Part shown: positions 11,269-36,520 of the stretch, piece after piece
How positions within the stretch are numbered: position 1 is the first letter of the stretch
Layout of the letters: every line of letters starts with the position of its first letter
Source: Hexactinellida sp. DTS-2022
Taxonomy: Eukaryota > Porifera > Hexactinellida
Assembly: GCA_028753945.1 (NCBI GenBank)
Contig: JAPNXP010000008.1
Location: 496,001 to 560,000 of the forward strand
Reading direction: 5' to 3'
DNA: 64,000 bases
The notes under the pieces: generated by a model
Told to the model about the DNA's origin: nothing
Databases searched by the model: none
What the model saw: the letters and a program-made list of their open reading frames with translations, nothing else
Made by a program: the position numbers and the translations under genes

Positions 11269-11387
11269 CGCCAAGTCATCATCACTATGAAGGTGTTAAA
11301 TTATTTCAGAAAGGTGTTTCAAAAGGCAACGACCCTTAGTGAGTTGGAAGTTTCGTTTTAGCTCACTTCATTTCAAAGATATTCAAA

Positions 11388-12444: not shown

Positions 12445-14294
12445 GGGATACAGACAATTCGTGACAAGACAATTCGTGACAAGACAATTCGTGACAGACA
12501 ATTCGTGCAGGACAATTCGTGACAGAGACAATTCGTGACAGGACAATTCGTGACAATTACAATTATTTTATTTTTTCGAATTTTTAAATTAAATTTATTA
12601 ATTCATTAATTAATTTATTAATTTATTAATTTATTAATTTATTTTTAAATCTATGTAATAATTTATTAATTTTTAAATTAAATTTATTTTATTTTTTCGA
12701 ATTTTTAAATTTCAAATTTATTTTATTTTTTCGAATTAGCGCCCCGACGCTTATTGTTTTCGCGGGTCAAATTTATTATAATTTTTTTTGGGAAAAATCA
12801 AGAAAATTATATTTTAGAGGTTTCCAATGGTTTTCAGCGACAGAATACATACCGTAGTTGCCAAAATCAATGTAATTACTGTCCAGCTATTTATTAATCT
12901 GTTATAATTTACCATACTAATGCTATTTTTATTGACCCGGCACTTATTCAATCCCCCGGCGCATGATGCTAAAAGATAGCTAATACATTAAGCTGAACCT
13001 CTATTTAGTGAACACCCTATAATTAATACACACTCTGGTAGCCCAATTTCTAAGCTGCACTAGAAGCAATCGGAAGTACAGTAAAACCTCCATTAGGGAA
13101 CACCTCCGATTAAGGAACAACTCTGCTTAGGGGACACTTTTTTTAAGTCCCGATTTTCTACTATGCTTTAACATTGATACCTACCTCCCATTAAGGAACA
13201 CCTCCCTACTATGAACAGGGAACACCTTTTGTGTCCCAGATGTAACTTAACCATTCAGATGGACCTCTCATTAAGGAACATTCGTATTTATCATAATTTG
13301 TGGGGATAGTTTTAATCTCAAGCCCATTTTAGCCAATATACAGTGGAGCCTCCCATAACGGCCTCTCCTAATAGCGGACAACCTCTAAATAACGGACAAC
13401 CCTCGTGGCACGGACGGATTGAATTTAGTATATGACTAATAGAAAAGCAACCTCTAAATAGCGGACAACCTCTAAATAGCGAACAACGACTACGGTCCCA
13501 AAGTGTCCGTTGTTCAGAGACTCTATTGCACATGAATTGGCATAAGTGTCTCTGCCACGTACCAATTCTGGCACAAGTGGCACTAATAAAATGTGCTGTA
13601 TCTCAGTAGAAAATAATCGTATTGGTTTGAAATTATGCACTTAAGAGTAATTCGACCATGTGGAATTCAAATCTGCAATCAGAACTTATATATTCTAATT
13701 ACATCTTAATTAATGATCAGTATTTTTTATTTAATTAGCTAATTATATAGTTAATGAGTTTCAAAAATTCGCTATTATATGTTAATTGACCACTATAAAT
13801 TTATCAAAATAGCTATGTTGAAACATCTAATAATGTTAATATGCTACTATATACATTAATTTATGAATACAAATTATTGCTCTTCAAATAATTTTGGCTG
13901 GTTAGTGTACATCTTGAGCATGTTTATAACAAACATCCATACACCTTACAAAGTTTATGATATGATCCTAAAAGTCAGACCTCTTATCAAGGAACACCTC
14001 CATATTAGGAACACTTTTCAGCAGTCCCCAAAGTGTTCCCTAATTGGAGGTTTTACTGTAATAAAATTCGAAAAAATTCAAAAAATAAAATAAATTTAAT
14101 TTAAAAATTAATAAATTATTACATAGATTTAAAAATTAATGAATTAATAAATTAAATTTAAAAATTCGAAAAAATAAAATAATTGTCCAAAATAATTGTC
14201 ACGAATTGTCCTGTCACGAATTGTCTTTGTCACGAATTGTCCTGTCACGAATTGTCTTGTCACGAATTGTCTTGTCACGAATTGTCTGTATCCC
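12445..14294. mobile_element. 1.85-kb element with tandem-repeat arms and 9-bp target duplication
   Basis: The ends are GGGATACAGAC and its exact complement GTCTGTATCCC. They are flanked by the direct repeat GAATATTTT (12436-12444 and 14295-14303). Each arm holds six or more copies of GACAATTCGTGACA, inverted between arms, followed by AT-rich sequence. The empty site is preserved in the paralogous promoter at about 9276-9284 (GAATATTTTGTG, single). The element split the promoter of NHL gene 4 and now ends about 83 bp before its ATG. Target length and arm structure suggest a Mutator-like or Merlin-like non-autonomous element. No transposase is visible; its interior is mostly other MITEs. Confidence 0.85.
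13079..14058. mobile_element. MITE family D (CAGTAAAACCTCC ends) inside the 1.85-kb element
   Basis: The left end CAGTAAAACCTCCATTAGGG is matched at the right by CCCTAATTGGAGGTTTTACTG. The GGGAACACCT and AAGGAACA motifs recur inside both ends. The interior also contains a second inverted set at about 13340-13525 (CAGTGGAGCCTCCCATAACG, AATAGCGGACAACC, AAAGTGTCCGTTG), so at least two insertions are stacked. Borders are approximate. Confidence 0.6.
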
Positions 14295-14377
14295 GAATAT
14301 TTTGTGTAGTTGTGTTATTATACAAAATTTCTAATATACATTATCTGTGTAATATTTTAATTTTATATTTAGCGAGA

Positions 14378-15616
14378 ATGGCAACTGCATACCCAATTGA
14401 AGCAGGCAATAAAGATAATTACGAGTTAGAATTGAGTCGAGTGAGAGAGAAGGTTAAAACTAAATTTATTGAATTAATTGATTGCTTGAAAGCTAGAGAA
14501 AGTGAGCTGTTGAGAGAGTTGGATAATATTCTAGCTTCTTATCTCTCTTATAGAAGCGAATTGGAGAATGTGATATATAAAGTTGAAAGCCTTAATGTAA
14601 TGAAACAACAACAACAAGAGACACTTATCTCGTCACCAGTTAAACCTTTAATTGAAAGATTACTGACTGAAATAAACACAGAATTAGAATCAATTAAGAC
14701 CCCAGTAGAACCTAAATTGGTTAGATTCGAGTGTGACAGCAACAAAATGTTAGCTGAATTGAACATGTTGGGTAAGTTGGTAGAGAAAGTGAGAAGTGGA
14801 ATTGAGTATAAAAGCAAGAAACAACCTCTAGTGAGTGTTTGTGAGAAAGGAATTGGAATGGAACAGCTTGATAGGCCACTAGGAGTAACTGTTGATAATA
14901 AAACTAGAAATATTTACATAGCAGATCGAGATAATCACTGTGTGAAAGTATTCGATAGTACTGGCAAGTATTTGTTCAAATTTGGAGACAATGAAGGTGA
15001 AGGAAGGATGTACTACCCGAAAGGTGTAGCTATTTGTGGAGATATAATTCTTATTTCTCAAGCTAACGACTGTATTCTCAATTATCAACTCAATGGGAAG
15101 TTTGTTTCAAGAATCGGTAGACCGGGAAGAGGAGAGTTAGAATTTAACTATCCCTTTGGTCTAACGATTGATGAGTCTAATGGAGACATTTACATTTGTG
15201 ATCGTATTAATAATCGTATTCAGATACTCAATAGTGATTTCTCTTTCAAGTCTCAGTTTGGAAAAGAAACACTGAAAACCCCTCGTGATGTTAAACTTTC
15301 CAAACAATACATTTATGTTCTCGATGAATCTAATCCTTGTCTCCATCTCTACAGCTATAATCACATTCTACAGAAGAGTGATATATCTCGAGGCGAAGGA
15401 ATGGAAGTTATTAATCCTTATTTATTCTTCATTGACCAAACTGATAATATTCTCATTTCAGATTGTAGCTCTAACTCTATTCATATTTTCAATACTGAAT
15501 TCCAATTGATTCATAGGATTCCAGTCTCTAACCAACCAACAGGTGTTACAGTAGACAAACAAGGAAGAGTTATAGTAGTGTGTTATGCTGATAAGGATTG
15601 TCTACAGATATTCTAA
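14378..15616 (+). CDS. Coiled-coil/NHL-repeat protein 4
   Basis: It encodes 412 residues from ATG 14378. The frame is open upstream, but that part translates the transposon arm (repeated CHELS peptides) and is not coding. It has the same coiled coil (with the QQQQ run) and six NHL blades as protein 3. The propeller half is identical to protein 3 up to the last ten codons. In the N-terminal half there are scattered substitutions (for example PVEPK for PVKPK). The transposon end lies about 83 bp upstream, so the ancestral promoter has been displaced by 1.85 kb. Whether it is still transcribed is not shown by the sequence. Confidence 0.8.
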   Translation: MATAYPIEAGNKDNYELELSRVREKVKTKFIELIDCLKARESELLRELDNILASYLSYRSELENVIYKVESLNVMKQQQQETLISSPVKPLIERLLTEINTELESIKTPVEPKLVRFECDSNKMLAELNMLGKLVEKVRSGIEYKSKKQPLVSVCEKGIGMEQLDRPLGVTVDNKTRNIYIADRDNHCVKVFDSTGKYLFKFGDNEGEGRMYYPKGVAICGDIILISQANDCILNYQLNGKFVSRIGRPGRGELEFNYPFGLTIDESNGDIYICDRINNRIQILNSDFSFKSQFGKETLKTPRDVKLSKQYIYVLDESNPCLHLYSYNHILQKSDISRGEGMEVINPYLFFIDQTDNILISDCSSNSIHIFNTEFQLIHRIPVSNQPTGVTVDKQGRVIVVCYADKDCLQIF

Positions 15617-19151: not shown

Positions 19152-21296
19152 ATGTCTGAAACAGAGACAGACTCAAAATTAGCTGATCATACAGATGATG
19201 CCCAAACGGATCATGACGTCACCGCTCCCAAACCTACTTCAAAACCCCCTACTGCCCCCCAGCGACCAGATCCTGCCAAGATGGACATCGTACAAGCCAC
19301 GCAGTATGGCTACCTAATAAGATGCGCTGATATTATAGAGAAACAGCGTGTTGACGTCACAAAAGGAGATGACGAAGGAATAACACTACTACATTGGGCA
19401 GCCATTAACAATAGGGTTGATATAGCAGAATACTACATACACAAGGGTGCCGATGTTAATGCCGTTGGTGGGCAATTGCGCGCTTCTCCAATACATTGGG
19501 CTACAAGAGAAGGTCATTTGAAAATGACTGTTTTGTTGCTAAAATACGGTGCCGCTGCTGGATCAGCTGATATCGAGGGAAAAAATGCGTTACATGTCGC
19601 AGCTCAATTCTCTTTCATTGATATTATTGCGTATTTAGGCGCCAAAGCTCCTGAATTACTCAACGCGAAAGATATCAATGGGCAGACACCGTTGATGTTA
19701 GGTGTTTCGCGCTCGTTCGGTTACGACCCTACTCGCCTTCTGATTAAACTCGGATCTCCTGTCAATGAGAAGGATATCCATGGTAACACTGCGCTACACC
19801 ATGCTATTAGACTAGCTAATCACCTCGCAATAGATGTTCTAATTGAAACAGGCAAAGCTTCGTTACACGTGTATAATGAGGATAATCAAAACCCGTTAGA
19901 TTACGCGTTTCACTATAAACATCTTCCAGTTATCGATGGTATACAAAAACGTATACAATCACAGGATAAATCAACTATTTTCAAACGTCTAACCAAAAAT
20001 CCTGTTTTCGCACGAAATTGTATGAACACTCTACCATTCCTATTCATTGGTGGTGTAGGCTATGCTGCTAGTTCTTCCACACAATTATTGATTTTCCTCG
20101 CTTTGTTCTTTCTAATAACAGGTGCGACTTGTCTGACAGCTAGTCTCCTATTACCAACAGTTTATCCACGGTTCCCATACTTTGTTTCCTTCGTAGCAAC
20201 GTATATATTCTACGCATATTGTACAACATTCTATTACGGTTTTGCTAATGGCATAGCAACTACTCTGCCATGGCAAATAACCATATGGACAACGTCAATT
20301 GTATTATTGTACTCGTTTTATAAATCAGTTGTGAGCTCACCTGGTATAATTAAACCCTCCAAAAGTGATCCGATGACAGAGTTAATACAAATGTGTGAAA
20401 ATAACGAATTTAAATACTCGAATTTCTGTACAACTTGTCTCGTACGCAAGCCATTACGCTCGAAACATTGCCCAGCTTGTAATCACTGTGTTGCGAAATT
20501 CGATCATCATTGTCCTTGGGTGGACAATTGCATTGGTGTTATGAATCACCATTATTTCATTACATTTCTGGCCAGTTGTACCGTAATGTTGTGTATCTTG
20601 TTCTATAACGGAATAATGTTCTTCCTACAGGAATGCGAAAATGTCCAATATGCAGAGGGGTATTTTCCTACTCTTCACGAGGCAGGTTTATGTTCACCAT
20701 GGGCCTTTTGGATGATCTTATTAACTTCGATTATGTTAATATGGGTGGTGTTACTATTGATCGGTCAGGTGTTCACTAACCTTATTATTGGCCAGACTAC
20801 TAATGAATATATGAATCGACATAAATATACTGTCCGCGCTAATTATAATGAGTGCAGGGCTTATTATAATAACGGAGTTATTGGCAATTTTATTGATATG
20901 TATGGTATTACTTTTTGTCCATTGATAAAACCACGTAAAATTGATTATTTTACACTCTATGATTTGCCAATGGAAGCGAGGCGAGTACAAGGAAATACCG
21001 AAAATTTACCGCCTAACCATCCGGCTAGACGCGCGCAAGAAAACGCGAATACTAATCCCACGGGTGGACAACTGCGGTTAGGCGAGGTGTTAAAAGACGA
21101 GAAATTACGCGCAGGTATGATTGCCGCATTAAAAAACAATCCAAAAGTGAAAGCTAATTTTAGTAATGAACTTATACAAAAGCCGGAATTACGAGATAAA
21201 ATGTCTCGAATCCTACGTGATGAACCTGAGTTACACGAACAGCTGTTGGGAACTAAATACTCAGTTGATGAACGTAGTTTCGAGGTTCAAAAATAG
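19152..21296 (+). CDS. ZDHHC17: Ankyrin-repeat palmitoyltransferase, ZDHHC17/HIP14-like
   Basis: A single exon encodes 714 residues. Residues 1-45 are polar and proline-rich. About 75-275 are six ankyrin repeats ([41 protein letters not shown] and so on). Membrane segments follow from about 292. The cysteine-rich zinc-binding domain is at about 424-472, with DHHCPW at 451-456; Cys454 is the acyl-enzyme residue. The TTxE-like motif reads QTTNEY. DHHC rather than DQHC favours ZDHHC17 over ZDHHC13. The enzyme transfers palmitate to cysteines of Golgi and vesicle proteins, with the ankyrin domain recruiting substrates. It is about 80 residues longer than vertebrate orthologues. The extra C terminus (about 635-714) has repeated NNPK, KPEL and DEPEL elements that recall STI1-type helical repeats. 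Confidence 0.92.
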
Positions 21297-21756
21297 AAAT
21301 TCCTCTACTCGACCATAATTTGTTTGTTTGTTGTTATTGTTTATACGTAGATAAATTATGTATAGTCTTTATTAAGCTGAATTGGAAACTCCTACATAGT
21401 ATATTTACATGCATTGTATATCAATATTATTTCTCTTGTCTTAGTGGGATATTTTAGGTATTTATAGTTTATTAGTTATTAGCTCCAATTTTCAATTAGT
21501 TCACCAAAATGTTAGGTACTAATTGTGTGTAAATTATTTTATGATAGCACTTGTAATTAAATATATTGTACACAATGTCGTAATCCCGAAAATATACAGG
21601 AAAACCTATTAATCCACTGGAAAATCACAAAATCAGGGATTTTAGTAATACTACTACATAGTACATACTTAGCTGATTATTCTGGGGGAAAATTTTACGA
21701 ATCATTCCCCTTAGAATAATACAAGGCCATCATTTTATACGTGCATAATCAAAGTA
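21297..21756. other. 3' flank of ZDHHC17
   Basis: AT-rich with no recognised gene or strong repeat. Confidence 0.5.
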
Positions 21757-21918
21757 CAGTATAACCTCGTTAATACGAACCGTCAAAATGCGTTCGCCTT
21801 ATTCGGAATTCGTATTGACCGGCGTCATTTGTATTGAAGAGGTTTGAAGAAGACTGAAATAGTGTTCGTATTAACCGGAATTGCGTATTAACCGTGTTCG
21901 TACTAACTAGGTTTTACT
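21757..21918. mobile_element. MITE family A'
   Basis: CAGTATAACCTCGTTAATACG at the left and CTAACTAGGTTTTACT at the right, each adjacent to TA. The internal GTCAAAATGCGTTCGCC landmark is present. Confidence 0.75.
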
Positions 21919-22575
21919 TATTTTGCGGTTATTCTGATTGAGCGGCTCCGACTTCATCAACCATTAACCAGGTTTTATATATTTGGAAATATATGTATAT
22001 CTTCATTCTATTGAATCCTAAGTAGATAATTGGTATAATTATAGAAATAACTTATATTTAGACCATCTACGTATTTCTAGACCAGGTTTTCTTACATATA
22101 CATTAGTATTACCCATAGACGGCAGGGCTTCTGGTTTACAGAATTTATAGACGGTCTACAAATTTTTGGCTTATTTGTATGGGCTTTTATAGACCGTCTA
22201 CATATAAGCATGCTAATCAAATTACTGTATGAGCAGTTATCGCTACTATGGGTCGCATGGCATAGTATACTACTGCTATATAATATGTATTCATTTATAA
22301 TTCGTTATAATCCAGGAATTCGTGAATTTTCTCTTAGACCTGTTCACCTATTGTGAAGATTTTTAGAACTTAATAATTTTGTAGAAACGTGGTTAGCTAT
22401 GCATTCTACATAAGGTTTTATCCTCGTAAATAATCTTGAATTTTGTAACCGAAAAATGATGATTTTGCATAGGAATGTTTTAAATTTATTGCTCTTAAAC
22501 CTAGCATTTTTCATTTGAAATGAGTTTAAATCTATGTATAGAGACAAGCCTAGCTTATATTAATAGTAAATTTCA
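21919..22575. other. Upstream region of the Argonaute gene
   Basis: AT-rich. It contains an imperfect inverted repeat at about 22075-22205 built on TAGACGGTCTAC / ATAGACCGTCTAC. The stretch just before ATG 22576 (22440-22575) is probably promoter or 5' UTR. No core promoter element can be assigned. Confidence 0.4.
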
Positions 22576-25500
22576 ATGGACCCACCTCCTACACAGGGTA
22601 ATGGCAATGTAAATAGGAAAAAGAAGCGAAATGGGCGTGGTCAAAACGGTTCTCAGAAACCACACACCCCTCCTTCGCCTCAAACCTCAACGCCCTCTTC
22701 TGGCGCTTCTCCCACACCGGAAACTTCTGCCGATTCATTAAAACAGTTGAATATCGAATCTACTCAAGATATAGATGCACCACCAGGTGTACAATTCGTC
22801 CCAGAGCCTACTCTGCCAGAAACAGGTACTAACCTTATTAATTAAGGGTTAACACAACTCATGAAACTCATTAGAGTAATTTAATTATCTGTGCAATTGA
22901 AACAATCTCGCTTATACAATATCTAAATTAATGTACACTTTATTTGGATAATAACCTATCATAGATGTAGATTAGTAGATAATTAGACAATTAGAAAGTG
23001 GAATATTAGATCTAAAATTATGTAAAAAAACGAGTATAACCTAAATATATTTATATGATTCAATAACAAAATTAAGGTAAACTATTATATAGAACTGATT
23101 GTAGTTAACAAAATGTGAAACAATTTTCCTCCGAAACGACATACTTGAAAATTATTTACGTACCTTTTGGTATAATAGCTGAAAATACCTATGTCCGTTT
23201 GTGAATGATCACGAATTGTCTTGTCACGAATTGTATTTATGTATTACCAATATAACCAAGGAATTATCCAGGAGCGCGAGACGCTCCTTTTGGAGCATGA
23301 TTTTGGGAAAATTTGAATTTAGGAGCGCGAAAATTTGGAATATTCTCCTATACCGTAACATAAATTTGTAATTTAGGCGTATGAAAATTGGATCAGACCA
23401 GGATTAGGAGCGTAATTACAAATGGCTGTATAATACACTGAATATAACAACTTAATATTTATTTAATTATTTAATTTATTTCTGAGAATTTCTATTTATA
23501 TAGCTGGAGCTACGCCAGACTTTATACCTGAAATTCCTGTTACAATTGCTACACCTGTTACAGTGCCTAGCACAACACCTGTTACTATTCACACAGAGAG
23601 GAATTTCTTTCCTCCGAAAAGACCTGATTTGGGGAAACTTGGAAGGAAAATTCCTTTACTCGTTAATTTCTTTCCTTTGGAAGTAAATGGTGGAGAAATT
23701 ATACAATATGACGTAAAGGTGTTTACAGAGGAAATGGTAGCAAGAAAGGGTTAGTTTTGCTGTACAGTCGAAACCGGTTTTTTCTAACCAATTCTTTGCT
23801 TGGAAATAAAGTAATAAAAATCCGATAATTAGAATAAACAGATTGAAAATAAATAAAATTGGATTTATTGCACATTTTAAATAGTTAGTTAGAAAAACCG
23901 ATTAGTTAGAAAACACCGGTTTCGACTGGAATTGTAAATTGTTAAATTAACTAAACACGATTACCTTAATATTAGGTTACGAAGGGAATGGAATGACAGA
24001 CAGAGATGAGAAAGCTTATGTTATGAAAGTCTTCTTAGAAAATTGTAAAACACTTTATCCTAAAGAATACCCAGTATATGATGGCAGAGCAATTATGTAT
24101 ACAAAACAACTATTAAAAGCAGCCAATCCATTCATTAAACATGAAATTGAATGGAGAGACCCAGAAGACGGAAAAAATGGAATGAAAAGGATAGCTCACG
24201 TCATTTTAAAACCATCCAACAAGTAATTACTTTAATACGTCATTTATATTAGGAGCTATTTTAATCTTCTGGGGATCAAAATGTATTACAATAGATGTCG
24301 GATATAAGCACACGGCATACCGGTTATAAGAACACTATGTTGGAAAACGGTTGCCATATACCCTATATAATTTATGTCGGTTATAAGCACATTAAGTGCA
24401 GTTCCCGACGATGTGCTTATAACCGGCATCCACTGTAATTAGTGACCTCCTTATAGGAATTCATACTTTTAGATTAATATTACATTTAATTGGTTCACAT
24501 ATAAAGATTTGACATTAAGTAGAATTATAAATAATTATAGGACAACCCAGTGAGTAATTCGTACTTTTGATAGTTCACAAATTATTTAATTTAGTATTCT
24601 TCTGATTAGCCAGTATGAATTTCGTCTGTTTCTTGAAATATTAGAATTTCACCCAATCATATGCGAATCGAATTAGGCTTAAAATTTGCCTACTTTATAC
24701 AAAATTATATGTTAGGAAATATGAAAGTATCCTAAATTATGAATTTATTATTCTTTATCATTATTCTTACAAGTTCTGTCACTTTATCTTCGCAAACAAA
24801 ACCTATTTTACATCCATTAACTGTATTCAATTTAAATGGAGGTTTAACCCAAGTAGAAATTAATGTCACTTATACTGGTATAGAAACGAGCCTTGGTATT
24901 TGGAATTGTCGTTATTATCTTCAAATAAATCGTTCTAAATACAAACATTCATTTCGTTTCGTGAAAGAGTTTGAAACACAGAAAAACTTATCCAATTACG
25001 TTGTGCGTATTGAATATCCAATACCAGGTGACACTTGTTACAGAATTTGTTCAAAATGCAGTGGAGAAAATCAAGAATGGAGTGAAACGAATTTCATTAC
25101 TGTACTAACTTTTAAAAAAGATCTACCTTCTTTATTAAAAGTTGAGCATAAATTCATGCACAAATTTTGGCCGTATATTTTCAAAGTTGATAACGTTGGA
25201 TACAACTACTATATCCATTTCTTTTTAAGATACACCGGCCATCATTCCCTTTCTAGATTCTATCTATTCGCTTGTCGGTACATATACGCGCCTTTTACAA
25301 TAACCCATTGTAGAAAACTATATGATTCTACCGTTTCTGAGCATACAGTGACACATATACTTACAGTTGATCGTTTTGGTTTAGAACATGGAAATTTCAC
25401 ACTTCACATGTGTTTAGATGATGGAAGATGTTCTCCTCCTTTTCTATACCAAACAAAGACTAATCGTGATATTAACCATGTATACCCTTATATAACCCGT

Positions 25501-28500
25501 GTAAGTAAAGTGAGAAAAGTAGGTGTTACCGATTCACTAGATGTCAATTGGTATTTTGATGAGAGTAAATCTAAATGGAAAATGTTTGTATATGCAGGTA
25601 CATGTGTTCGAGATTACAATGGAGTGCTACGTGTTAACAATTTGGTAATAAAACCCGCGATTCCTGGAAAGAAGCATTATACAGTTGTCTTTAAATATTT
25701 TCAAAGAAGATCGTATTGCATATTAGTCTGTGATGGTAGTTTTGTGCATGACAGATGTGGTTATCCTTTAATATTCAATAATTTCGAAGAACCAATACAA
25801 AAACAAGGTTACCCAAAAATAACACGTGTTGTCAAAAAATCACGTTTTGGGTATAGCAACGAAATTGAGATTTATTACGGTATGCCACCAAGCCTATTCA
25901 AGTTGAATCCAATAATTGATTTCTATCGTTGTCAATATAAAGATAATCCATTTACTGTATTCAATTATTCCTGGGCTGGTTATAGGCAGTTGGGAACACC
26001 TGGACCTGGAAAACAGTATACAGTTGAAAATATGCCTATTGGTGATGCCTGCATTTTAGCGTGTGGTGTGAGGAATTCCATTGAGGTTTGTAGTTTGCCG
26101 TTTAAAATTAATAATTATGTAAAGACAAGAAAAACCATGGATTCAGAAAATTCTCCACGAGTCACTAGTTTGAAGAAATTTACTAAATTCGCTTACTCAA
26201 ACAATGTGAATGTTTCATGGTATTTTTCGAGTCAAATGAGTAAGGAATTTAACACTATTAACGTGTATACTTGTCAGTATACTGAACCACCATTATCCAC
26301 TTTTAATTACACCCTTGCTATTCAAATAAAAGCCGATAAAAACCGCGACAATTACAAGTTTGAAATATACAATCTCCCAATTGGACAAATTTGTATTGCA
26401 ATCTGTGGTGATAGCAAATCAATAGAAATGTGTGGCAGTATATTTAAGTTCGAAAATAAACCTCAAGAAAATATCAAAAACTTTCCTAATTCAAATCCTA
26501 AAGTTATAGGAATGAAACGATCAATAAAATACGGTTACACAAGTGGAATTGAATTGGAAATTAATTATCCTCTCAAATTGCATTCAAAATATCCAGAATT
26601 AGTTGTGTATAGATGTGAATACACTTTGTATCCTCATTACCAAACGTATAACTATACAATAGCAACACGAATAAACAATTTACAGAAAAAAGAAAATTTC
26701 TTGATTCAAGTTCAAGGTTTACCGATTGGTTTAGCTTGTATTCATGTATGTGCTGATAACGGAAATTTTGACACCTGTGGATTGCCTTTTCGTTTGAAAA
26801 ACACTCGAATTGTTGATGATACAGAATACACTCGAAATCGCCCGCGAATTATACAAGTCACAAAACCTTATGAAAGGGTTTACAGTAGTTTTGGGACAGT
26901 TCGATTCAATTATCCCAATACATTAATCGCGAAATATGACACTATAGCCATATATCGCTGTCAATATCTCGAAAATCCATTGAAAACTTATGATTATTCA
27001 TTATCGATGGAATTATTGTCTTCTAACAAAAATAAAATACACACAGTGCAAGTAGATGAACTTCCGAAGGGAAAAGCTTGCATTCAGATTTGCGCTATGA
27101 ATGAACACTTTGAGAGATGTGGAATGCCTTATACATTCGAGAATAATTAATAGTCAAATTAATCATCCTAGGGTTTAATTAAATAATGTTATTTAAGCCT
27201 TAATTATATTAATAGATTCTTGGATATAATTATGACCTTGATTGATTTAATGTGGAGTTTTTAATGCATCAAGTTCTCATTCCTGATTATGTTCGAAACT
27301 TTATATTTTATCATATCCATGGTCCAGTAGTAGATTGAATCTGAGTATTCAGTATACTGGAAAAGACCTTACTTAAATAATATTTTTAAATCGAGCTCAG
27401 TTTTTATGATAGTAAAAGAGCCAGGCGTACTTTCTAAAGGTCAATTTTAATAACTGTAAATAAACTTAATTTCTCAGTGCCTGAATTTATTATTAGAAAA
27501 AGCTGAGCTCTGTGTAAGTTATCTCTTACTAAAAACCTTAAGAGTAATAACTGTCGAATCTATTTCATTAAAAACTCCCTTGTTCTAAGTATTAACGGAA
27601 GACAACTGTTTTGTAAGTACGTACTAGTATATCCACTATCAAATACAGTGGATGCCGGTTATAAGCACATCGTCGGGAACTGCACTTGATGTTCTTATAA
27701 CCGGCATGTTCTTATAACAGACATAAATTATATAGGGTGTATGGCAACTATTTTCCAACATAGTGTTCTAATATCCGATATGTTCTTATAACCGGTGTGT
27801 TTATATCCGACGTCTACTGTAGTATATTACTATTATATTTTCTATAGAGTGGATCTCTCTATCCTGAACCATTTTGTTAACAGAAGTGAGCATTACCGAA
27901 CTGGAACAGAGCGAGAAACAGAATTAGATTATCTACAGGAAGCCATTACAGCTATTGACATTATCCTCAAAGAATTTCCGAAATCAAAGGCTGTATCATT
28001 AGGTCGGAATTTCTATTACAAACCTCGAGGTCTCGATGAGAATAACGATATTGGTGGAGGCCGTTGGATTTGGGATGGGTTTTCTCAATCAGTTCGCCCT
28101 GGCCAATGGAAACCGTACATAAATATTGATAAGAGCTGTGGAATATTTGTGAAGCCCCAGCCTTTGCTAGATTTCATTCAAGAGTTAATAGGGACTGGTG
28201 ATCCTAACAATCACAAAAACAGACAGAAAATATCTGACCATTTAGCTAATCTACGTGTTATATCAAAGCATTTGAAATATCCAAAGAGACAACGTATTGT
28301 GAGCAGAGGGCCACCACTATTGAGGTCTGCTCGTGATGAAATATTCGAAAAGGATGGAAGGAAAATTAGTGTAGAACAGTATTTCTTACAACAATATCAG
28401 ATAAAATTACTTCACCCTCTTCTTCCCTGTATTAACGTGGGTGAGTTTGAGAGAATAGTATATTTTTATTTTATAATAAATTAAACACAGTCAACTCTGC

Positions 28501-31500
28501 TTAATAGAGCCACCGGTTAATCGGTTTCTCCGCTTAATCGGGTCAAAACAACCTGGTCTCGAGGTGACTATATTAAGCGGAGTCGACTGCTGCTATAAAT
28601 CCTGTGAAATTTTGACCCAATTAAGCGGATTAAGCGGAGTTGACTATACATTATAAAAGGTATTGGCTAATATACAAGTAGTAAATTATTTCCTAAATCC
28701 CAAGGTAAGCCGGGTACTAAGAACTCCCCTGGAAAGTGTATTGCGCTTCCAATTGAGTTGTGTATGATAAAAGATGTCCAGAGGAGTGGACAGGATCTCG
28801 AGCCAGAACAGACAACTAAAGTGTTGAAAATAGCCGCTAGACCAGCTCCTGAGAGGAGAGATATGATTAACCAGATTGCTAGCAGTGTTCTAGGGCATAC
28901 TGATGAGGTATTTAACCGAAGTTGGCTGTGGGGTAAAATTATAAATAGAAAAAACCCCACTTTCATCATCACTTTCAATTGAAATTCAATTAACTTTCAC
29001 TTTCATTTTCACTTCCGCCCGCCAGCTAAGGGTTAGTAAAATTAATTAATTAATTAATAACTATTAATTAATTAAAAAGTTAATAAGTTATACTCTTAGT
29101 TACCTATTGAAAGTGAAAGTGAAAATTTAATTTAATTTCAATTGAAAATGGGGGTTTTCTAATTATACCTTGGACCCCAAGGCATCTATGTCATTATTAA
29201 GTTAATTAATTAATTAATTCGAAATTGGTCGTATTATCCAGAAATTCCGTTATTTACATCCATTTGTATATGCTTAGGGAATTAAACCTTGTACCTCGTA
29301 ACCATAATTCGCCTTATCCGTGTTCTTACTAACGAGATTATACTGTATAATCAATCAATTCATTTAAAAAAAAACTAATATTAGAACCTACCTGCGATAA
29401 ATTACACTTTTCAACAACCTACAAAATTACTAGATACAGTAGAACCTGCATAATTCGACCCTCTATAATCCGGAATTCAGCAGAACCGAACTTTTTCCTT
29501 ATTCCAATGAGCTTCGAATTAGGCAGGTTCTACTCTACGAATTATCCAGGAGGCGAGACGCTCCTTTTGGAGTATGATTTTTGGAAAATTTGCATTTAGG
29601 AGCGCGAAAATTTGGAATCCTCTCCTATACCGTAACATTAATTTGTCATTTAGGCGTATTAGACGAGCATTCGAAGCGTATTTACAAATAGCTGTATAAT
29701 ACACTGGTTCTACTGTACTTATATCATAACAATTCCATATATTTAATAGGTACAAAAGCACTACGGTATAAAGACTAACTCAAGTATGCTACAGGTAGAA
29801 GGCCGTGTATTAGTGCCGCCTTATATATTGTATGACAACAACACTCGGGCCGAGCCCTCAAGGGGACAATGGGACATCACAAGGTACAAACTCCTACAAG
29901 CTAAACCCATGGGTCATTGGGTGGTAATTGATTTTGTCCGCACACGAGATGATTCTATTCGCGGTTTTATTCGCGAGTTAATAGCTCAGGGTGGCAGTAA
30001 GGGGATGGCTATTGCTGAACCTCTCGAGGTGATTAAGCGCGAACCTCGTAGTGATACAGACGTGCGAAAACTTCTGCTTGATGTCAAAAACTATTTTCCC
30101 GAACTCCAACTAATTCTTATAATATTAGACGAGAGAATGCAACCTCGGAAATTCAGTTCAGTGGTGTATAGAGAGATTAAGAAAGTTGGAGACACGGAGA
30201 TAGGAGTTCCCACACAATGTGTTAAGCAGTTAAATGTGAATAAAGCTAATGGCAGTACTGTAGGGAATATATGCTTGAAGATCAATGCTAAATTGGGTGG
30301 AATCAATCATAGCATTATAATGGAAGGTAAGTTTGTGTAAACCGGTTTTAAAACTTAGCCACTGTTCCGAAAATTTTTCTTTATTCCCAAAACTTTGGGG
30401 TTATTTTTTAAATATTTTGATCTTGACTTTTTATTTCCGCCCAAGACGGGTTCTACTGTAATAATTTACAAGAAAACTATATATATCGGAATATATAAAT
30501 ATTTTGTTAGAAAGTTAGAATTTATCGACTGAAGCAATACCATACTTTATTTAATGTTGAAATATTACTTTTTGGGATAATTAATTTAGATACAGTAGAA
30601 CCTCGTTAATACGAACACTATTTCAGTTCCCTTCAAAGCCTTTTCAATACAATTGACAGTAGTTAATACGAATTCCAAATAAGGCGAATGCATTTTGACG
30701 GTCCCTTGGTGATCTTATTAACGAGGTTCTACTGTAAATATTTGGGGATTTTGGCAGAGAATCTTGTAATTATAAGAACTTATAATGGAAACACTGATAC
30801 AGTAGTGTCGGATATATAAGTACACCGGTTATAAGAACATATCGGATATAAGAACACTATGTTGGAAAACGGTTGCCATATACCCTATATAATTTATGTC
30901 GGTTATAAGAGCATGCCGGTTATAAGCACCTTAAGTGCAGTTCCCGACGATGTGCTTATAACCGGCATCCACTGTACTAACGAGAATCACGTATAATCCT
31001 GGTTTCAATGTTATAGGCACGCCAACAGCTGAGCTGCTTAAAGTCCCTACAATGTTTATGGGTGCAGATGTAAACCATCCCAAACCAGGCACTGATAAGT
31101 ACACTCCTTCTATCGCAGCAGCAGTCGCTTCACTGGATAGGAGACTCGCGAAATATGCCAGTTCCTGCCGCTTCCAGCAACACGAGAGGGCTGAGGCTGA
31201 CACGTCAACTGGTGCGAAAAGACGGTATCGAAAGGAGATTATCATAGAATTTAAAGAAATGGCTAAAGAGCTGATTAATGCATTTATGGAATATAATAAG
31301 GGTAGAAAACCAATGAGAATTATATATTACCGGTGAGTTATATCATTATTAAATCTAAAAGGTTTACTTATATATCGGCCAATACCTTTTGATATATATA
31401 TCGGAATTTGCAAATGTGATTTTTTAATGCTAAAATTGCCTGGAAATACATTAGAAAAGTGTTGGCCGAAATATAAGTACAGTAGAACCTCGTTAGTACG

Positions 31501-32422
31501 TACATGGTTATTATGAACACTATTTCAGTCCCTTTCAAAGCCTTGTAAAATACAAATGATGTTGATTATTACAAAATCCGGGTAAGGCGAACCCATTTTG
31601 ACGGTCCCCTGGTGTTCGCACTAACGAGATTCTAATCAGGGTTCTCGCCAGGATTTGTTGTGTAAGGGTACATGAGAGTGAGATATTACTTAATGTCAAT
31701 GATTTAATGAAAAATTCAAATAATAATATTGACTCACTTAGGACATGTGAATAATGGGTACAATAGCTTTCATGAAGGGCATGTACCTTTTGATAGAGGC
31801 ATAGCGAGAACCCTGAAATTTCTAATATAATTCCTCAATATTTATATTGCAGTACCTATATAGTGATGGTGTATCAGAAGGTCAGTTCATGCAGGTGTTA
31901 CAACATGAGCTACTTGCATTACGCGCTGCCTGCACTGAAATTGATCCTGAATACAAGCCTACAATGACTATTATAATAGTACAAAAGCGACATCACTTAC
32001 GAATGTTTCCATACAACCCAAGAGATGAAACTGGGAAAGCTAAAAACATTCCACCTGGTACTACGCTAGATCACAGTGTTACACACCAAGTGGAATTCAA
32101 TTTCTATCTTAACAGTCACTTCGCATTACAAGGCACAGCTAAATGTGCTTTATACCACGTGCTTTGGGACGAAAATGATTTTAAATCAGACAGTCTACAG
32201 GCTATTACATACCAATTGTGTCATACATACGCTAGGTGTGCTAAATCAGTCTCATATCCCACTCCAGTGTATTACAGCCATTGGGTGGCGTTTCGTTATA
32301 ATAAATCTGCTGGTTATGGTGACCCAGATAGAGATAGAAATAAACTGATTGCTCCTAACGGGGATTGGGATCAGTTTCGTAGAAAGGTTATAACTGAATT
32401 AGGCACTATGTACTGGGCTTAA
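22576..32422 (+). CDS. AGO: Argonaute (AGO clade), slicer-type, eight exons
   Basis: Exons: 22576-22825, 23504-23749, 23976-24222, 27848-28440, 28705-28907, 29750-30326, 31017-31332 and 31864-32422. All phases join, giving 996 residues. Residues 1-130 are a Lys/Arg/Gly then Pro/Ser/Thr-rich tail. Then come the N domain (RPDLGKLGRKIPLLVNFF), linker 1 (GGGRWIWDGFSQSVRPGQW), PAZ across exons 4-5, linker 2, MID (GVPTQCVK, CLKINAKLGGIN, keeping the 5'-phosphate Gln and Lys) and PIWI. The catalytic tetrad is complete: Asp723 (GADVNHP), Glu779, Asp812 (DGVSEGQ) and His950 (YYSHWVAF). PIWI carries a roughly 12-residue insertion (around ERAEADTSTGAKRR) before Glu779. It ends MYWA. AGO-clade proteins bind small RNAs and cut or silence targets; cleavage competence is inferred from the tetrad. 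Intron 3 hosts another gene. Exon 1 lacks strong conservation, so its start is less sure. Confidence 0.93.
23266..23440. repeat. Repeat family G, in Argonaute intron 1
   Basis: Reverse orientation: TTATCCAGGAGCGCGAGACG ... GCTGTATAATACACTG. Just before it, at 23209-23234, stand two copies of TCACGAATTGT, the arm motif of the 12.4-kb element, without the rest of that element. Confidence 0.7.
24290..24436. mobile_element. MITE family B, in Argonaute intron 3
   Basis: TAGATGTCGGATATAAGCAC at the left and GATGTGCTTATAACCGGCAT..CCACTG at the right; the central TTGCCATATACCCTATATAA is present. Confidence 0.8.
24739..27150 (+). CDS. Secreted protein of seven Cys-containing repeats, nested in an Argonaute intron
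   Basis: A single exon encodes 803 residues, wholly inside Argonaute intron 3 on the same strand. Residues 1-19 are a hydrophobic signal peptide (LLFFIIILTSSVTLSS). The mature part is about seven repeats of 100-115 residues beginning near residues 22, 131, 248, 362, 474, 588 and 698. Repeats 4-7 share the order: Pro-x-[IV]-x-x-[VLM]-K, a tyrosine-serine/threonine turn (YS or YT), YRCQY or YTCQY, a NY near FNY/YNY, LPIG-x-x-CI-x-x-C, and CG-x-[PI]-[FY]. Each has about four cysteines, so two disulfides per repeat are plausible; repeats 1-2 are diverged. Many NxT/NxS sites occur. There is no membrane anchor. A beta-sandwich fold is a guess. I recognise no named family. The gene could be extracellular matrix or a recognition protein. 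Confidence 0.75.
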   Translation: MNLLFFIIILTSSVTLSSQTKPILHPLTVFNLNGGLTQVEINVTYTGIETSLGIWNCRYYLQINRSKYKHSFRFVKEFETQKNLSNYVVRIEYPIPGDTCYRICSKCSGENQEWSETNFITVLTFKKDLPSLLKVEHKFMHKFWPYIFKVDNVGYNYYIHFFLRYTGHHSLSRFYLFACRYIYAPFTITHCRKLYDSTVSEHTVTHILTVDRFGLEHGNFTLHMCLDDGRCSPPFLYQTKTNRDINHVYPYITRVSKVRKVGVTDSLDVNWYFDESKSKWKMFVYAGTCVRDYNGVLRVNNLVIKPAIPGKKHYTVVFKYFQRRSYCILVCDGSFVHDRCGYPLIFNNFEEPIQKQGYPKITRVVKKSRFGYSNEIEIYYGMPPSLFKLNPIIDFYRCQYKDNPFTVFNYSWAGYRQLGTPGPGKQYTVENMPIGDACILACGVRNSIEVCSLPFKINNYVKTRKTMDSENSPRVTSLKKFTKFAYSNNVNVSWYFSSQMSKEFNTINVYTCQYTEPPLSTFNYTLAIQIKADKNRDNYKFEIYNLPIGQICIAICGDSKSIEMCGSIFKFENKPQENIKNFPNSNPKVIGMKRSIKYGYTSGIELEINYPLKLHSKYPELVVYRCEYTLYPHYQTYNYTIATRINNLQKKENFLIQVQGLPIGLACIHVCADNGNFDTCGLPFRLKNTRIVDDTEYTRNRPRIIQVTKPYERVYSSFGTVRFNYPNTLIAKYDTIAIYRCQYLENPLKTYDYSLSMELLSSNKNKIHTVQVDELPKGKACIQICAMNEHFERCGMPYTFENN
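27151..27644. other. Argonaute intron 3, 3' part
   Basis: AT-rich with no coding signal. Near 27395-27510 it shows an imperfect inverted repeat around GAGCTCAG / CTGAGCTC. It probably includes the 3' UTR of the nested gene. Confidence 0.4.
27645..27821. mobile_element. MITE family B, abutting Argonaute exon 4
   Basis: CAGTGGATGCCGG at the left and CCGACGTCTACTG at the right, each next to TA. It ends about 25 bp before the acceptor of exon 4, so the branch point and polypyrimidine tract of intron 3 must overlap or directly follow the element. Confidence 0.85.
28488..28645. mobile_element. MITE family C, in Argonaute intron 4
   Basis: CAGTCAACTCTGCTTAATAG at the left and AAGCGGAGTTGACT at the right; the internal GGTTTCTCCGCTTAATCGGG is shared with the copy at 2672. 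Confidence 0.75.
28935..29195. repeat. Inverted repeat family J, in Argonaute intron 5
   Basis: The left arm ATAAATAGAAAAAACCCCAC with TTTCACTTTCATTTTCACTT is matched at the right by GAAAGTGAAAGTGAAAAT and GGGGGTTTTCTAATTATACC, then TTGGACCCCAAGGCATC. Remains of MITE A (29222-29348) and an L-type repeat (29437-29533) follow in the same intron. Confidence 0.65.
29437..29705. repeat. Repeat L and family G copies, in Argonaute intron 5
   Basis: 29437-29533 has CAGTAGAACCTGCATAATTC at one end and AATTAGGCAGGTTCTACT at the other. 29540-29705 is a family G copy in reverse orientation. The exon 6 acceptor (TTTAATAG) is 45 bp further on. Confidence 0.65.
30593..30734. mobile_element. MITE family A', in Argonaute intron 6
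   Basis: CAGTAGAACCTCGTTAATACG at the left, TTAACGAGGTTCTACTG at the right, TA on both sides. The inside is inverted relative to the copy at 837. Confidence 0.85.
30799..30975. mobile_element. MITE family B, in Argonaute intron 6
   Basis: CAGTAGTGTCGGATATATAAG at the left and TAACCGGCATCCACTG at the right with flanking TA. It ends 41 bp before the exon 7 acceptor. Confidence 0.85.
31480..31636. mobile_element. MITE family A', in Argonaute intron 7
   Basis: CAGTAGAACCTCGTTAGTACG at the left; at the right ACTAACGAGATTCTAA, where the terminal ACTG has been lost. Confidence 0.75.
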
Positions 32423-33128
32423 TTCGTTAATAGACCACACTTGTTAGTCTCTAATAGGGAATTAAAGCTCTGGCGTGAGTGTGTGAGTGTGCATGGAGAT
32501 GTAGAGCAAAAATATTTTGTTTGTTTTATATAATATTTCATTAGGCCTAACATTTGGTATTTACTTACCCTTTTGCATAAGTACTTCTCTTAGAGTTGAG
32601 TTGTTATTTTGCAATTGTGTAGTAGTTGTTGTTGTTGTTGTTTAGGTTTATTTATTCTATTATCTATTACTGTAAACCCAAAGGAGTTTGAAATGTGTAT
32701 ACTACAAGTATCGTGATGTATTAGTTTTCATAAATGTACTTTGACTAACAGAGTGGAATTTTCCACGTTTGTTCTGTTGTATGCCTTACTCAATTTAATA
32801 ATGGTGAACCGAATGCAGTAGACTCTCGTTAATAGTACACCAGGGGACTGTATACTTTTTTATTTGTATAGGCTAGTATAATTACACCTTTTGCCCTTTA
32901 ACAAATAATTCACTTTATTTTGATAGAGTTCTAATGTACTTAAATTGGTTATAAAGGGAGTTTACTGTAGTTGAATTTTTAATTTGAATTCTCGTTTCAA
33001 AGGTAAACAAGTGTATTAGTTTGGGTCCTAAAAAATACAATGGTTATACACAAGGCTAAATACTTCATAGATATTTTCAAATATTTATGAGTTCAATCAA
33101 ATATAATCTAGCATTAGAATACGCCTAA
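32423..33128. other. Argonaute 3' UTR region and PPP4R2 upstream region
   Basis: Contains a GTT/TTG triplet run near 32625-32642 and a degenerate family A MITE at about 32817-32972 (GTAGACTCTCGTTAATAG ... GGGAGTTTACTG). No gene was recognised. Confidence 0.5.
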
Positions 33129-34052
33129 ATGTCACAAGAAAGTCTATCACAGACTTTATCTCGCGAATTAACCGTTCCGTTAAGTCAAAACGATCCTGAT
33201 GAACTATTTCGTACTTTAAAAGATTACGTCACTAAGTTAGGAGATATTTCATTGTTAATCGATAAAGAAATTCCTTCCTTACCGATCGAACTCTCGGATA
33301 TTATAACACAAATTTCAAACTACGCGAAAATACTATACCCATGGCGATACATCTATACTATAATTATTGTCAAATTAAAGGAAGTTTTGAGTTCATTTGA
33401 TCAGGTACCAGATGAAAAACAGGATGAAGAAACAACAGTTATGAAAAATATTGATAGATTGTTTACACAAAGATTTAAAAAAGCACCTCCCTTCACTTTA
33501 CAGCGTATATGTGACCTTCTTTCTGAACCAAAAAAGTTTTATAAATCAAAACTAAAATTCCTTCGTGCTATAGATAAAGTGTTAACAGTTATTTCTCATG
33601 CTAAAATACAATGTATTTCCCCACTACCTTCTTCTCTCAGTTCAGAATCTAAATTTTCGCCGCCGGCCAAAAGATTGAAACAAGAATTAAGTACTGCCTC
33701 AACTGTAATTATCAGTAGCGATTCAACATCATCAAGCGAGCGTAATACGACCGGTCATTCAATACATTTCTTTAATGAAGAGTTATCAGAACCGGAAACC
33801 AGTAGCATTGAAAATAAAATGTCTGAAAAAATTCCTGATAACTCACCACCTGTTTCAGAACAGTATTTGGAATGCTCAGTGAGTGAAGCGGATTCTACCA
33901 CAGCAAATGGAGTGCGCTCTATACAAGATTCGATCGAAACCAAAGATGAAAATGAAGCAAAAAGCGATGAACAAATTGAAACACCTGCAAAAACACAGAA
34001 TGAGAAAATTGCAGTCATGAAAGATATCCTTATAGAAACTCATAATAATTAG
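33129..34052 (+). CDS. PPP4R2: Protein phosphatase 4 regulatory subunit 2
   Basis: Intronless, 307 residues from ATG 33129. The conserved N-terminal half includes YIYTIIIVKLKEVLSSF and the family signature PFTLQRICDLLSEPKKFY, then KFLRAIDKVLTVIS. The C-terminal half is acidic, Ser/Thr/Glu-rich and low complexity, as in other members, with a PPAKRLKQE patch that could serve as a nuclear localisation signal. PPP4R2 joins PPP4C and PPP4R3 to form the PP4 complex, which acts in DNA-damage repair and centrosome maturation. The human protein is longer (about 417 residues), with the difference in the acidic tail. The reading frame is intact. Confidence 0.88.
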   Translation: MSQESLSQTLSRELTVPLSQNDPDELFRTLKDYVTKLGDISLLIDKEIPSLPIELSDIITQISNYAKILYPWRYIYTIIIVKLKEVLSSFDQVPDEKQDEETTVMKNIDRLFTQRFKKAPPFTLQRICDLLSEPKKFYKSKLKFLRAIDKVLTVISHAKIQCISPLPSSLSSESKFSPPAKRLKQELSTASTVIISSDSTSSSERNTTGHSIHFFNEELSEPETSSIENKMSEKIPDNSPPVSEQYLECSVSEADSTTANGVRSIQDSIETKDENEAKSDEQIETPAKTQNEKIAVMKDILIETHNN

Positions 34053-34317
34053 AATTAGAATCAATTCAGTATATAATTAATAATTAACCACAAACCTTAT
34101 AAACGGTATCCCATGCATTTGTGGGAATGTTCAGTGAATTATGTAAAGTATTATGTCTTTATATCTATCTCCAGTAATTCACATGTTTATGCTGTAGATA
34201 TGTACAATATTGACTTAATACTAGTAGTACAGTTAATACACTATATAAGAACCTCAGAACAGAGAATTTATGTTCTTATATACGTAGTGTATATAGTACA
34301 GCGGCACAACCGTACAA

Positions 34318-35064
34318 TTGTTCATTTTTTTGATAAAAGCATCAAAATTTGTACACATGTACTTTGATGTAGTGCGAACATTTGAGGATATTGAGGCAAT
34401 TGAAAGAGTGTCTATATCGGCCATGACAGCTCGTCAAAGTTAACACGTCCGATAGTGTTCGCCGGACTTGTTTCCCATAAAAACTTGTTTCAAATTAAGT
34501 TATATCGTCTTTTTATTGTTGAATTCGGTTTCCAAGTAAAATTTCCGATAATTTGATATATCACATGAACATATTTGGAAAACACTTGATTTTATAAAAT
34601 TAATCGAGATTCACCGTGATTTACCATAAATATCGAATAATTTATCAAATCTCGTTTTACAGGGTCGGTATGTGTATAATTATACTCAGGTAGTTGAGAG
34701 GAGTCGAAAGAGGGGTCACTCGATTGGGTAAGTACACAATTGGAGAATGGAATTTTGACACATTCCTGGTATATTCCAGCGTTGCTATGGCAAAATTCTT
34801 CCAAATATGTTCATGTGATATATCAAATTATCGGAAATTTTACTTGGAAACCGAATTCAACAATAAAAAGACGATATAACTTAATTTGAAACAAGTTTTT
34901 ATGGGAAACAAGTCCGGCGAACACTATCGGACGTGTTAACTTTGACGAGCTGTCATGGCCGATATAGACACTCTTTCAATTGCCTCAATATCCAAAAATG
35001 TTCGCACTACAACAAAGTACATGCGTACAAATTTTTGTGCTTTTATCAAAAAATGAACAATCTG
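34318..35064. mobile_element. Fold-back element with about 265-bp arms
   Basis: The left arm (about 34318-34582) and right arm (about 34797-35064) are near-perfect complements: TTGTTCATTTTTTTGATAAA, GTGTCTATATCGGCCATGAC, TTCGCCGGACTTGTTTCCCA and CACATGAACATATTTGGAA all recur in reverse. The spacer of about 215 bp is AT-rich with no coding potential. Reading frames across the arms are artefacts. The superfamily is unclear. Confidence 0.8.
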
Positions 35065-35472
35065 TTGAAACTTTATGTCTATGCCGCTGGACTAATATAC
35101 TTATATGGTGTATGGATTTATTTTAGTAAAAGTATTCTTATATATCCGTTTAAAATCTTATATGTTGTATACATTGGATCATACTTAAGTAATTATATTT
35201 CACAATTTGGTAGTGTGAATGTCAATGGCAGTGACTAATAATCCTATTTGCGTTTTATGCTCAAATAATATGCTGTCTCATTTACTAATGACTAGCATCA
35301 TAGATATCCAACAATATATCCGAGAACAAATAAAACATATAAGGTTGATTATCTTGCTAAGTAAATTACCATAAAATCCAAATCCAGTTAATGTCCATTT
35401 ATTAATAAATATTTGGAAATTTCCTAGGTTTTGACTTTTAGGACAGAATATAACATGTCTTATGCTTTTACA

Positions 35473-35637
35473 ATAGAACTCTGTTAGTACGTACACCCCC
35501 TGGGGAAGAAAATTAGTACGTATTATCCGAGTGTTACGTACTAACCGTGTTGACATAAAGATACATATAAATGGACAAACTTTGTTTATACAAGTTAGTA
35601 CGTACTAAACCAGGTGTACTAACCGAGTTCAACTGTA
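35473..35637. mobile_element. MITE with TTAGTACGTAC motifs
   Basis: AGAACTCTGTTAGTACGTACA at the left and GTGTACTAACCGAGTTCAACTG at the right are imperfect complements. Related fragments lie near 8530-8645 and 11665-11805. It ends 20 bp before the ATG of the NHL pseudogene. Between the fold-back element and this copy (35065-35472) nothing was recognised. Confidence 0.6.
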
Positions 35638-35656
35638 ATCCTCTATATTAAGGTAA

Positions 35657-36520
35657 ATGGCTCAAGCGAATCCTGGTAACATCGATAATTTCGAACTGGA
35701 ATGGGGTCGTGTTAAACTGAACATCCAAATACAATTAGGTGATTTAGTTAATAGCTTGAAAACTCGAGAAGAAGAACTGTTGAAAGAGATGGATAGTATA
35801 CCTGATAATTATATTACTTATCGAACTGAATTTGAGAATGTGAAAGAGAAGAAGATTGAGATTTAAAAGCTAAAATTTATCATCAAAATGAACTGGCATC
35901 ATCTCGCATTAAATCTGTTCATGAGAACTCACAACTAAACACAGAACTTCAATTAATTGGGACTCTAATATAACCTAAAATGGTTTGTTTTGAGTGCGAC
36001 AGCAACAAAATGTTAGCTGAATTGAACAAGTTGGGTAAGTTAGTTAAGAAAGTCAGACCCGAAACTGACTATAAAAGCAAGAAACAACTCCTAGTGAGTG
36101 TTGAGAGGAAATGGAATGGAACAACTTAATAGGCCACTAGGTGTAACAGTCGATAATAAAACAGGAAATATTTACATAGCAGATTTTTTTTTTTTTTTTT
36201 AAATTGAGATATAATTCTAATTTTCCCCACAGTATTCTCAATTATCAACTCAATGGGAAGTTAATTTCTAGAATGTGAATAGGAAAGTTAGAATGACAAT
36301 CTCTTATGTCTAACAATTGATGAGTCGAATGGAGACATTTACATTTGTGATAGTAATAATAATCGTATTCATACTCATTAAAGATTTCTTTTTCAAATCA
36401 GAATTTGGAAAAGACCCCCTCGTGATGTAAAGTTATAAAAAGATTATATTTTATTCTTGATCATTCTAATCCTTGTCTTCACCCCTTTGATTACAATAAA
36501 ATTCTGATGATAGCACGTGT
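35657..36520 (+). pseudogene. Coiled-coil/NHL gene, decayed
   Basis: It starts with an intact ATG and 69 codons of the family coiled coil (FELEWGRVKLNIQIQ, LKTREEELLKEMDS), then a stop at 35864. Homology continues in shifting frames: TTTGAGTGCGACAGCAAC, the first NHL blade to ATTTACATAGCAGAT, a 20-T insertion near 36186-36205, then ATTGATGAGTC..GGAGACATT and later blades to about 36500. Multiple frameshifts and stops show it is not functional. The first 69 codons could still make a short coiled-coil peptide. Confidence 0.85.

Follow-up and report, generated by a model that had tools for sequence, protein, structure and literature searches.

A single-exon gene for a putatively secreted seven-repeat protein lies in sense within an Argonaute intron of a glass sponge, framed by inverted MITE-like repeats

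The window considered here is a stretch of 64,000 nucleotides from the glass sponge Hexactinellida sp. DTS-2022 (assembly GCA_028753945.1, contig JAPNXP010000008.1, positions 496,001 to 560,000 of the forward strand), and its Argonaute gene contains, wholly within intron 3 and in sense between exons 3 and 4, an open frame of 803 codons. The reading that we prefer, with a probability of roughly 0.7, is that this frame is an intact gene that is expressed independently of its host and encodes a secreted protein of seven Fn3-like modules, as a member of a small family of single-frame genes. The first-pass annotation of this DNA, made from the letters alone, had described the frame, its repeats and its nesting and had thought the arrangement itself noteworthy; the observation is confirmed and its interpretation is partly supported, the arrangement not being rare in such genomes. 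Two features were absent from that description: an inverted pair of sequences resembling a miniature inverted-repeat transposable element (MITE), and two paralogs of the nested gene, each in a single frame.

The coordinates, strand and intactness of the nested gene proved to be exactly as annotated: its ATG is at 24739, its stop codon ends at 27150, and no stop interrupts the 803 codons, a run with a chance probability of ~10^-28 at the base frequencies of the intron around it. The other five frames over the gene contain 44, 49, 49, 57 and 79 stops. The N-terminus of the protein is hydrophobic and, by eye, resembles the signal peptide that had been proposed; together with eight N-glycosylation sequons, this suggests that the protein is secreted. 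The frame qualifies as a nested gene in that it is an intact reading frame of its own and has homologs elsewhere in the genome (see below). That it is an alternative exon of the Argonaute gene is ruled out by its own ATG, its signal-peptide-like start, its own stop and these homologs.

The 28 cysteines of the protein fall into seven groups of four, spaced C-x(37-40)-C-x3-C-x8-C in repeats 3-7, a pattern from which repeats 1 and 2 deviate. A hidden Markov model trained on repeats 4-7 found seven stretches, all in register (amino acids 51-106, 169-235, 249-348, 358-460, 472-574, 586-689 and 701-803). The independent E-values of repeats 4-7 (at most 3.8e-48) are trivial, since the model was built from them; that of repeat 3 is significant (7e-6), and those of repeats 1 and 2 are marginal (0.0021 and 0.036). 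"Seven repeats", the count first annotated, is a fair label, repeats 3-7 being clear by profile and repeats 1-2 weak and divergent.

In the Argonaute model, eight exons join at GT-AG borders with their phases in agreement, giving a stop-free protein of 996 amino acids, of which residues 100-956 aligned with human AGO2 as a single stretch in a search of the PDB (E 6.6e-151). Because this alignment runs without a gap across the junction of exons 3 and 4, where codon 248 is split, the exons on both sides of the nested gene can be assigned, by homology, to one gene. The sense nesting in intron 3 is thereby upheld, and the possibility that would have undone it, namely that the flanking exons come from two separate genes, is ruled out.

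Intron 3 is not common to the intron-rich Argonaute gene on C3, since the latter is, by eye, one open stretch across the equivalent position. The window's gene and this multi-exon gene on C3 are those in which the Argonaute or Piwi coding sequence is split; six others are single long frames (L004-L009, on C1, C18, C14, C6, C4 and C2, respectively). Four of these six (L005, L006, L007 and L009) have 36-43% identity to the window's Argonaute, L005 and L007 being 96% identical to each other, and the remaining two (L004 and L008), perhaps Piwi, have only 25-26%. A further Argonaute-like locus (L035, C6:4387500-4397400) has frame jumps in adjoining DNA and stops inside one Piwi match, as would be expected either of a pseudogene or of short introns in a working gene.

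A search of the genome with the nested protein returned three loci: the nested gene, L002 at C18:6495448 (E 9.2e-20, 33% identity) and L003 at C5:4620452 (E 2.0e-5, 28% identity). The latter two are single open frames of 348 and 387 codons from stop to stop, respectively, and each recovers the nested gene in the reciprocal search; at the level of sequence, the three form a family in this genome. L002 has two repeats and, by eye, a hydrophobic C-terminal tail that could be a glycosylphosphatidylinositol anchor or a membrane segment, and L003 has one clear repeat with an uncertain remainder. Neither paralog has a MITE-like repeat within ~9 kb on each side or a Piwi match nearby. The nested protein and both paralogs have no match in Pfam at E<=1, and a scan of bacterial and archaeal genomes with the single protein gave 22 pattern stretches and no relative. 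A similarity to the ribosomal protein uL14 was dismissed (nine phmmer rows, best E 0.095). An origin as a retrogene was likewise rejected: no intron-bearing parent was found, the only two other loci being single frames, in a search that distant parents, matched exon by exon, could escape.

What fold might these repeats have? For repeat 7 (103 amino acids), with four other repeats of the window supplied as an alignment, structure prediction gave a confident model (predicted local distance difference test, pLDDT, 89.6; predicted template modelling score, pTM, 0.81), which is all-beta except for one short helix that follows the second strand and precedes the third. Its topology is, by prediction, the seven-stranded beta-sandwich of Fn3. 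A Foldseek comparison with the PDB gave 1691 rows at E<=10, headed by 4lsd (E 1.2e-3, template modelling score, TM, 0.49). Among the 50 matches listed, the highest TM values were those of fibronectin type III (FNIII) domains, namely those of Ihog (0.68 for 2ic2 and 2ibg, 0.65 for 2ibb), DSCAML1 (0.64) and sDscam (0.63), and immunoglobulin domains also matched, with TM up to 0.60. The paired TM values were 0.68/0.62 to Ihog FNIII-1 and 0.64/0.56 to a DSCAML1 FNIII. In a library of viral structures, one of 1073 rows was at E<=0.001, at TM 0.65 and from a phage tip attachment protein; the 50 matches listed include several with Fn3 in their names and many without a name or characterisation.

Because sequence comparison gives no confirmation of this resemblance, we call the repeat Fn3-like by its predicted fold and do not assign it to Fn3. 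When ten single repeats were compared with Pfam, FN3_7 matched one of them (E 0.026, 15.2 bits against a cut-off of 34.3), a row no better than noise, since five unrelated families likewise matched one repeat each at E 0.031-0.098; the fn3 cut-off was not reached in this single-repeat search, which had been proposed earlier as a way of finding a known domain. Alignment with hhalign to the fn3 domains of the same genome (nine of ten extracted) gave E-values of 0.14 and 0.11 at a probability below 1%, in the register expected by eye, and a profile search of the PDB gave one row (E 0.52). The earlier statement that the repeats match no known family thus stands for Pfam families and is qualified for the fold, which is predicted to be an Fn3- or immunoglobulin-like beta-sandwich.

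The likeness to Fn3 (PF00041; Ihog FNIII-1, PDB 2ic2) extends, by eye, from the predicted sandwich to the strand register, to a B strand with W-Y-F at its end in several of the repeats, and to an L-P-x-G turn that precedes strand F. The differences are the four cysteines in their characteristic spacing, the short helix between strands two and three, the lack of an fn3 profile match and a cysteine near the place of the tyrosine that forms the tyrosine corner of Fn3. SKICH domains (PF17751), which occur in the cytosolic proteins NDP52 and TAX1BP1, were also considered: NDP52 (5z7l) appears at rank 23 of the Foldseek rows with 20% identity, but its superposition with the repeat is poor (TM 0.45). 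Membership was rejected, the nested gene not being among the three PF17751 matches in the genome. A profile comparison of the nested repeat with one SKICH-like protein of the genome aligned only 17 columns, and a PDB search with a SKICH-like domain of the genome gave four unrelated rows (best E 0.12). As a separate observation on Fn3 in this genome, 150 of 488 candidate fn3 matches were scored, and many of these 150 cluster within ~355 kb of one contig (C1:559841-915199), an apparent local expansion of Fn3-coding exons.

The nested gene is enclosed by two inverted copies of a repeat unit of ~180 bp, which lie beside both splice sites of intron 3; without them and all that lies between them, the intron would comprise about 90 nt. 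A query of 182 bases gave 1930 first-look candidates in the genome, and all 40 of those scored match at least 175 of the 182 bases at >=92% identity. The ends are TACA[AG]T...CTGTA in all three copies of the Argonaute gene. The repeat is MITE-like in that it is short, has inverted ends bordered by TA and recurs almost unchanged at many sites. Compared with 11 siblings, five of the copies in the window are on average 92-97% identical, and window copies compared in pairs are 86-97% alike. The left and right arms are 92.2% identical, their means to the siblings being 96% and 94%, a comparison that is biased in that the siblings were drawn from the best matches to the right copy.

Framing by inverted MITE-like copies can be read directly from the DNA. 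That both non-coding flanks of intron 3 should hold a copy by chance has a probability of ~1e-4 on the basis of 1930 candidates per 112.4 Mb, or ~3e-3 on the basis of the window's density (6 copies in 64 kb), and the inverted arrangement has half of either figure. Since these values were computed after the pair had been noticed, copies cluster (a second copy lies near one of the 11 sibling loci, L015), and insertions into coding sequence are selected against, they are only suggestive.

Folding of the whole 3625-nt intron, and of this intron only, gave a minimum-energy structure in which 146 of the 155 left-arm bases pair with the right arm (expectation, 145.1). The duplex of the two arms has a calculated energy of -233 kcal/mol, compared with -53 and -56 kcal/mol for the self-hairpins; 100 mononucleotide shuffles of the arms gave a mean of -51 and a lowest value of -69 kcal/mol. 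A long intronic stem is therefore the prediction of the folding model.

Transcription of the nested gene on its own is most likely, because the paralogs lie outside Argonaute genes, TATA-like strings lie upstream and poly(A)-like strings precede the right repeat; as string matches, both kinds are weak. The left repeat and the ATG are separated by 301 bp, in which TATA-like strings occur at 24500 and 24526, and two poly(A)-like strings besides that in the table, AATAAA at 27459 and ATTAAA at 27567, precede the right arm. A promoter of the gene's own would thus lie between the left repeat and its start codon, and a poly(A) site of its own upstream of the right repeat; if so, its mRNA would contain neither arm, as both signals would lie between them. 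The Argonaute pre-mRNA would have both arms, which could form a stem that leaves ~90 nt of intron outside, and the nested gene would be removed as part of intron 3 during Argonaute splicing. We hypothesize that, in the host pre-mRNA, the stem loops out the nested gene. Mechanisms by which duplexes bridge RNA or loop it out have been reviewed (PMC7404189), and the arms here resemble those of introns with ends joined by complementary sequence in lying near the donor and acceptor of one intron; the difference is that here they are predicted to enclose an entire protein-coding gene. For the nested protein itself, the probable role is an extracellular one, in adhesion, in the matrix or in recognition.

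A more elaborate scenario, which we consider distinctly doubtful, is that the gene arrived in an Argonaute intron of ~90 nt as composite MITE-gene-MITE cargo, with the inverted arms now acting as an RNA switch. The outer borders of such a composite element would be 64 and 26 nt from the ends of the intron. In the Argonaute pre-mRNA only, the stem would close off the nested gene in a loop, to be spliced out, the nested mRNA being armless; moreover, the stem of ~150 bp may feed Dicer, so that small RNAs for the Argonaute protein would come from the Argonaute gene itself. If the composite-element reading were true, transposons would have built the housing of a sense gene within another gene without interference.

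Several points weigh against the reading of the nested frame as an independently expressed Fn3-like gene that a stem folds away. In AT-rich DNA, chance alone should yield TATA-like and poly(A)-like strings. The fold prediction is based on one repeat with a five-row alignment; no Foldseek row from the PDB is at E<=0.001, and the full-length single-sequence model of the nested protein failed (pLDDT 30.4), so that the structure prediction envisaged by the first-pass annotation for repeats 4-7 is confident for repeat 7 alone. As for the stem, selection that keeps the arms paired was considered and rejected: their 92.2% identity is about that predicted from their independent divergence from the siblings, so no selection for the stem is visible, and arm complementarity is, on these identities, explained by shared descent alone. 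An energy folding of a 3.6-kb RNA is not proof of folding in the nucleus, and the right arm has a stronger predicted duplex with the third copy, in intron 6, than with the left arm (-290.9 versus -233.3 kcal/mol).

This last value is also the starting point of one rival explanation, in which the right copy pairs with that of intron 6 to enclose exons 4-6 and favour exon skipping or back-splicing, the framing of the nested gene being incidental. Reverse-complementary repeats promote the pre-mRNA folding behind circular RNAs (PMC8516420), but the left arm is transcribed first and is about as close, and copies are common in this genome, which makes this explanation look quite improbable. Whatever its bearing on intron 3, the inverted pair 27644-27821 and 30798-30976 around exons 4-6 is, in silico, a candidate circular-RNA or exon-skipping arrangement. 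Another explanation is that there is one transcription unit with two products: a transcript from the Argonaute promoter would be either spliced or cleaved and polyadenylated in intron 3, and the nested protein would be made from a long-leader or trans-spliced RNA, the two genes then being regulated as alternatives. The shared strand and the poly(A)-like strings inside intron 3 are consistent with this. However, the nested frame would then lie downstream of Argonaute exons 1-3 with their ATG, where it would be poorly placed for translation without re-capping of the RNA; moreover, both paralogs lie outside Argonaute genes (there being no Piwi match near C18:6495448 or C5:4620452), so members of the family need no Argonaute promoter. 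Two products from one unit are, in our judgement, unlikely.

It could also be that the nested frame is a decaying passenger, a once-functional copy that was stranded in the intron and is open only because it is recent, as the divergence of repeats 1-2 might suggest. Against this, the 803 codons are open (chance ~1e-28) and the 28 cysteines are kept in seven fours; furthermore, the copy is probably old, since the nearest paralog is only 33% identical, and an old frame without constraint would be expected to be broken. We regard decay as very improbable.

To what extent is the arrangement unusual? One comparison of sponge genomes (PMC10282587) gives 2432 nested genes for Aphrocallistes vastus (12.4% of genes), 3358 for Amphimedon and 5032 for Sycon, along with 83 for Oopsacas minuta and 0 for Ephydatia muelleri, the low counts being affected, according to its authors, by annotation settings; it also gives 12409 single-exon transcripts for A. 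vastus. In a human gene set (PMC2330155), 75 nested pairs are parallel and 152 antiparallel (227 in total), and selection is said to disfavour overlaps on one strand. The human single-exon gene CHML is nested in OPN3 (PMC3192792). The present case resembles these in being a complete, here intronless, gene in one intron of an unrelated host; it differs in being on the same strand, the rarer orientation in the human set (75/227), and in having inverted MITE-like copies beside both splice sites. The earlier claim that the arrangement is noteworthy in itself is therefore qualified, such nesting being unexceptional given thousands of nested genes in three of the five sponge genomes and 75 parallel pairs in the human set.

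The nested gene is thus one of a kind reported in thousands in some sponges, and its apparent novelty lies in the protein family and in the framing by inverted repeats beside both splice sites. Among the papers listed on nesting and intron pairing, none describes, in its title or the opening of its abstract, a nested gene enclosed by inverted transposons, which is a weak negative. The case adds a family without a Pfam entry, of secreted or, for one paralog by eye, membrane-anchored strings of four-cysteine Fn3-like modules, which are candidate adhesion or recognition proteins. It also adds an example of the housing of a sense gene in an intron, with an inverted transposon-like pair so placed that the inner gene could be folded away in the host transcript only. 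Formation of the stem would link transposon insertion, tolerance of a nested gene and double-stranded RNA within one Argonaute gene; without it, this is an ordinary nested gene.

Table. Positions in the window of the nested gene, its Argonaute host and the MITE-like copies
Feature	Position	Strand	Basis
Nested single-exon gene, 803 aa	24739..27150	+	open frame, cysteine and profile analysis, two paralogs in genome
ATTAAA, possible poly(A) signal of nested gene	27178..27183	+	string match only
Host Argonaute gene, 996 aa	22576..32422	+	gene model; AGO2 match; Piwi-domain matches on exons
Argonaute coding exons 1-4	22576-22825, 23504-23749, 23976-24222, 27848-28440	+	gene model
Argonaute coding exons 5-8	28705-28907, 29750-30326, 31017-31332, 31864-32422	+	gene model
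Argonaute intron 3, 3625 nt, GT-AG, splits codon 248, in N domain	24223..27847	+	gene model
Left MITE-like element, TA at ends, 64 intron nt before	24287..24437	-	repeat search, copy alignment
Right MITE-like element, inverted relative to left, 26 intron nt after	27644..27821	+	repeat search, copy alignment
Third copy, Argonaute intron 6	30798..30976	-	repeat search, in silico pairing

The Argonaute gene also contains a second repeat family, with direct copies at 23276-23440 (intron 1) and 29553-29706 (intron 5) that share a 107-nt block 93% alike. Rfam gave no match at gathering thresholds in window positions 20000-36000. Loss of Wnt is known from glass sponges; a search of this genome gave no match to Wnt, being of a kind that does not show absence, and gave matches to the fibrillar-collagen C-terminal domain and to TGF-beta. 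The latter two mark the genome as that of an animal, and the missing Wnt match, together with its many single-frame genes, points to a sponge, perhaps a glass sponge. Elsewhere in the window, an ankyrin-DHHC palmitoyltransferase occupies one open frame of 714 codons (19152-21296), four long plus-strand frames with NHL repeats form an apparent local array (4323-15616), and three frames of MatE-family transporters lie on both strands (37768-39381, 43493-44188 and 58971-60500).

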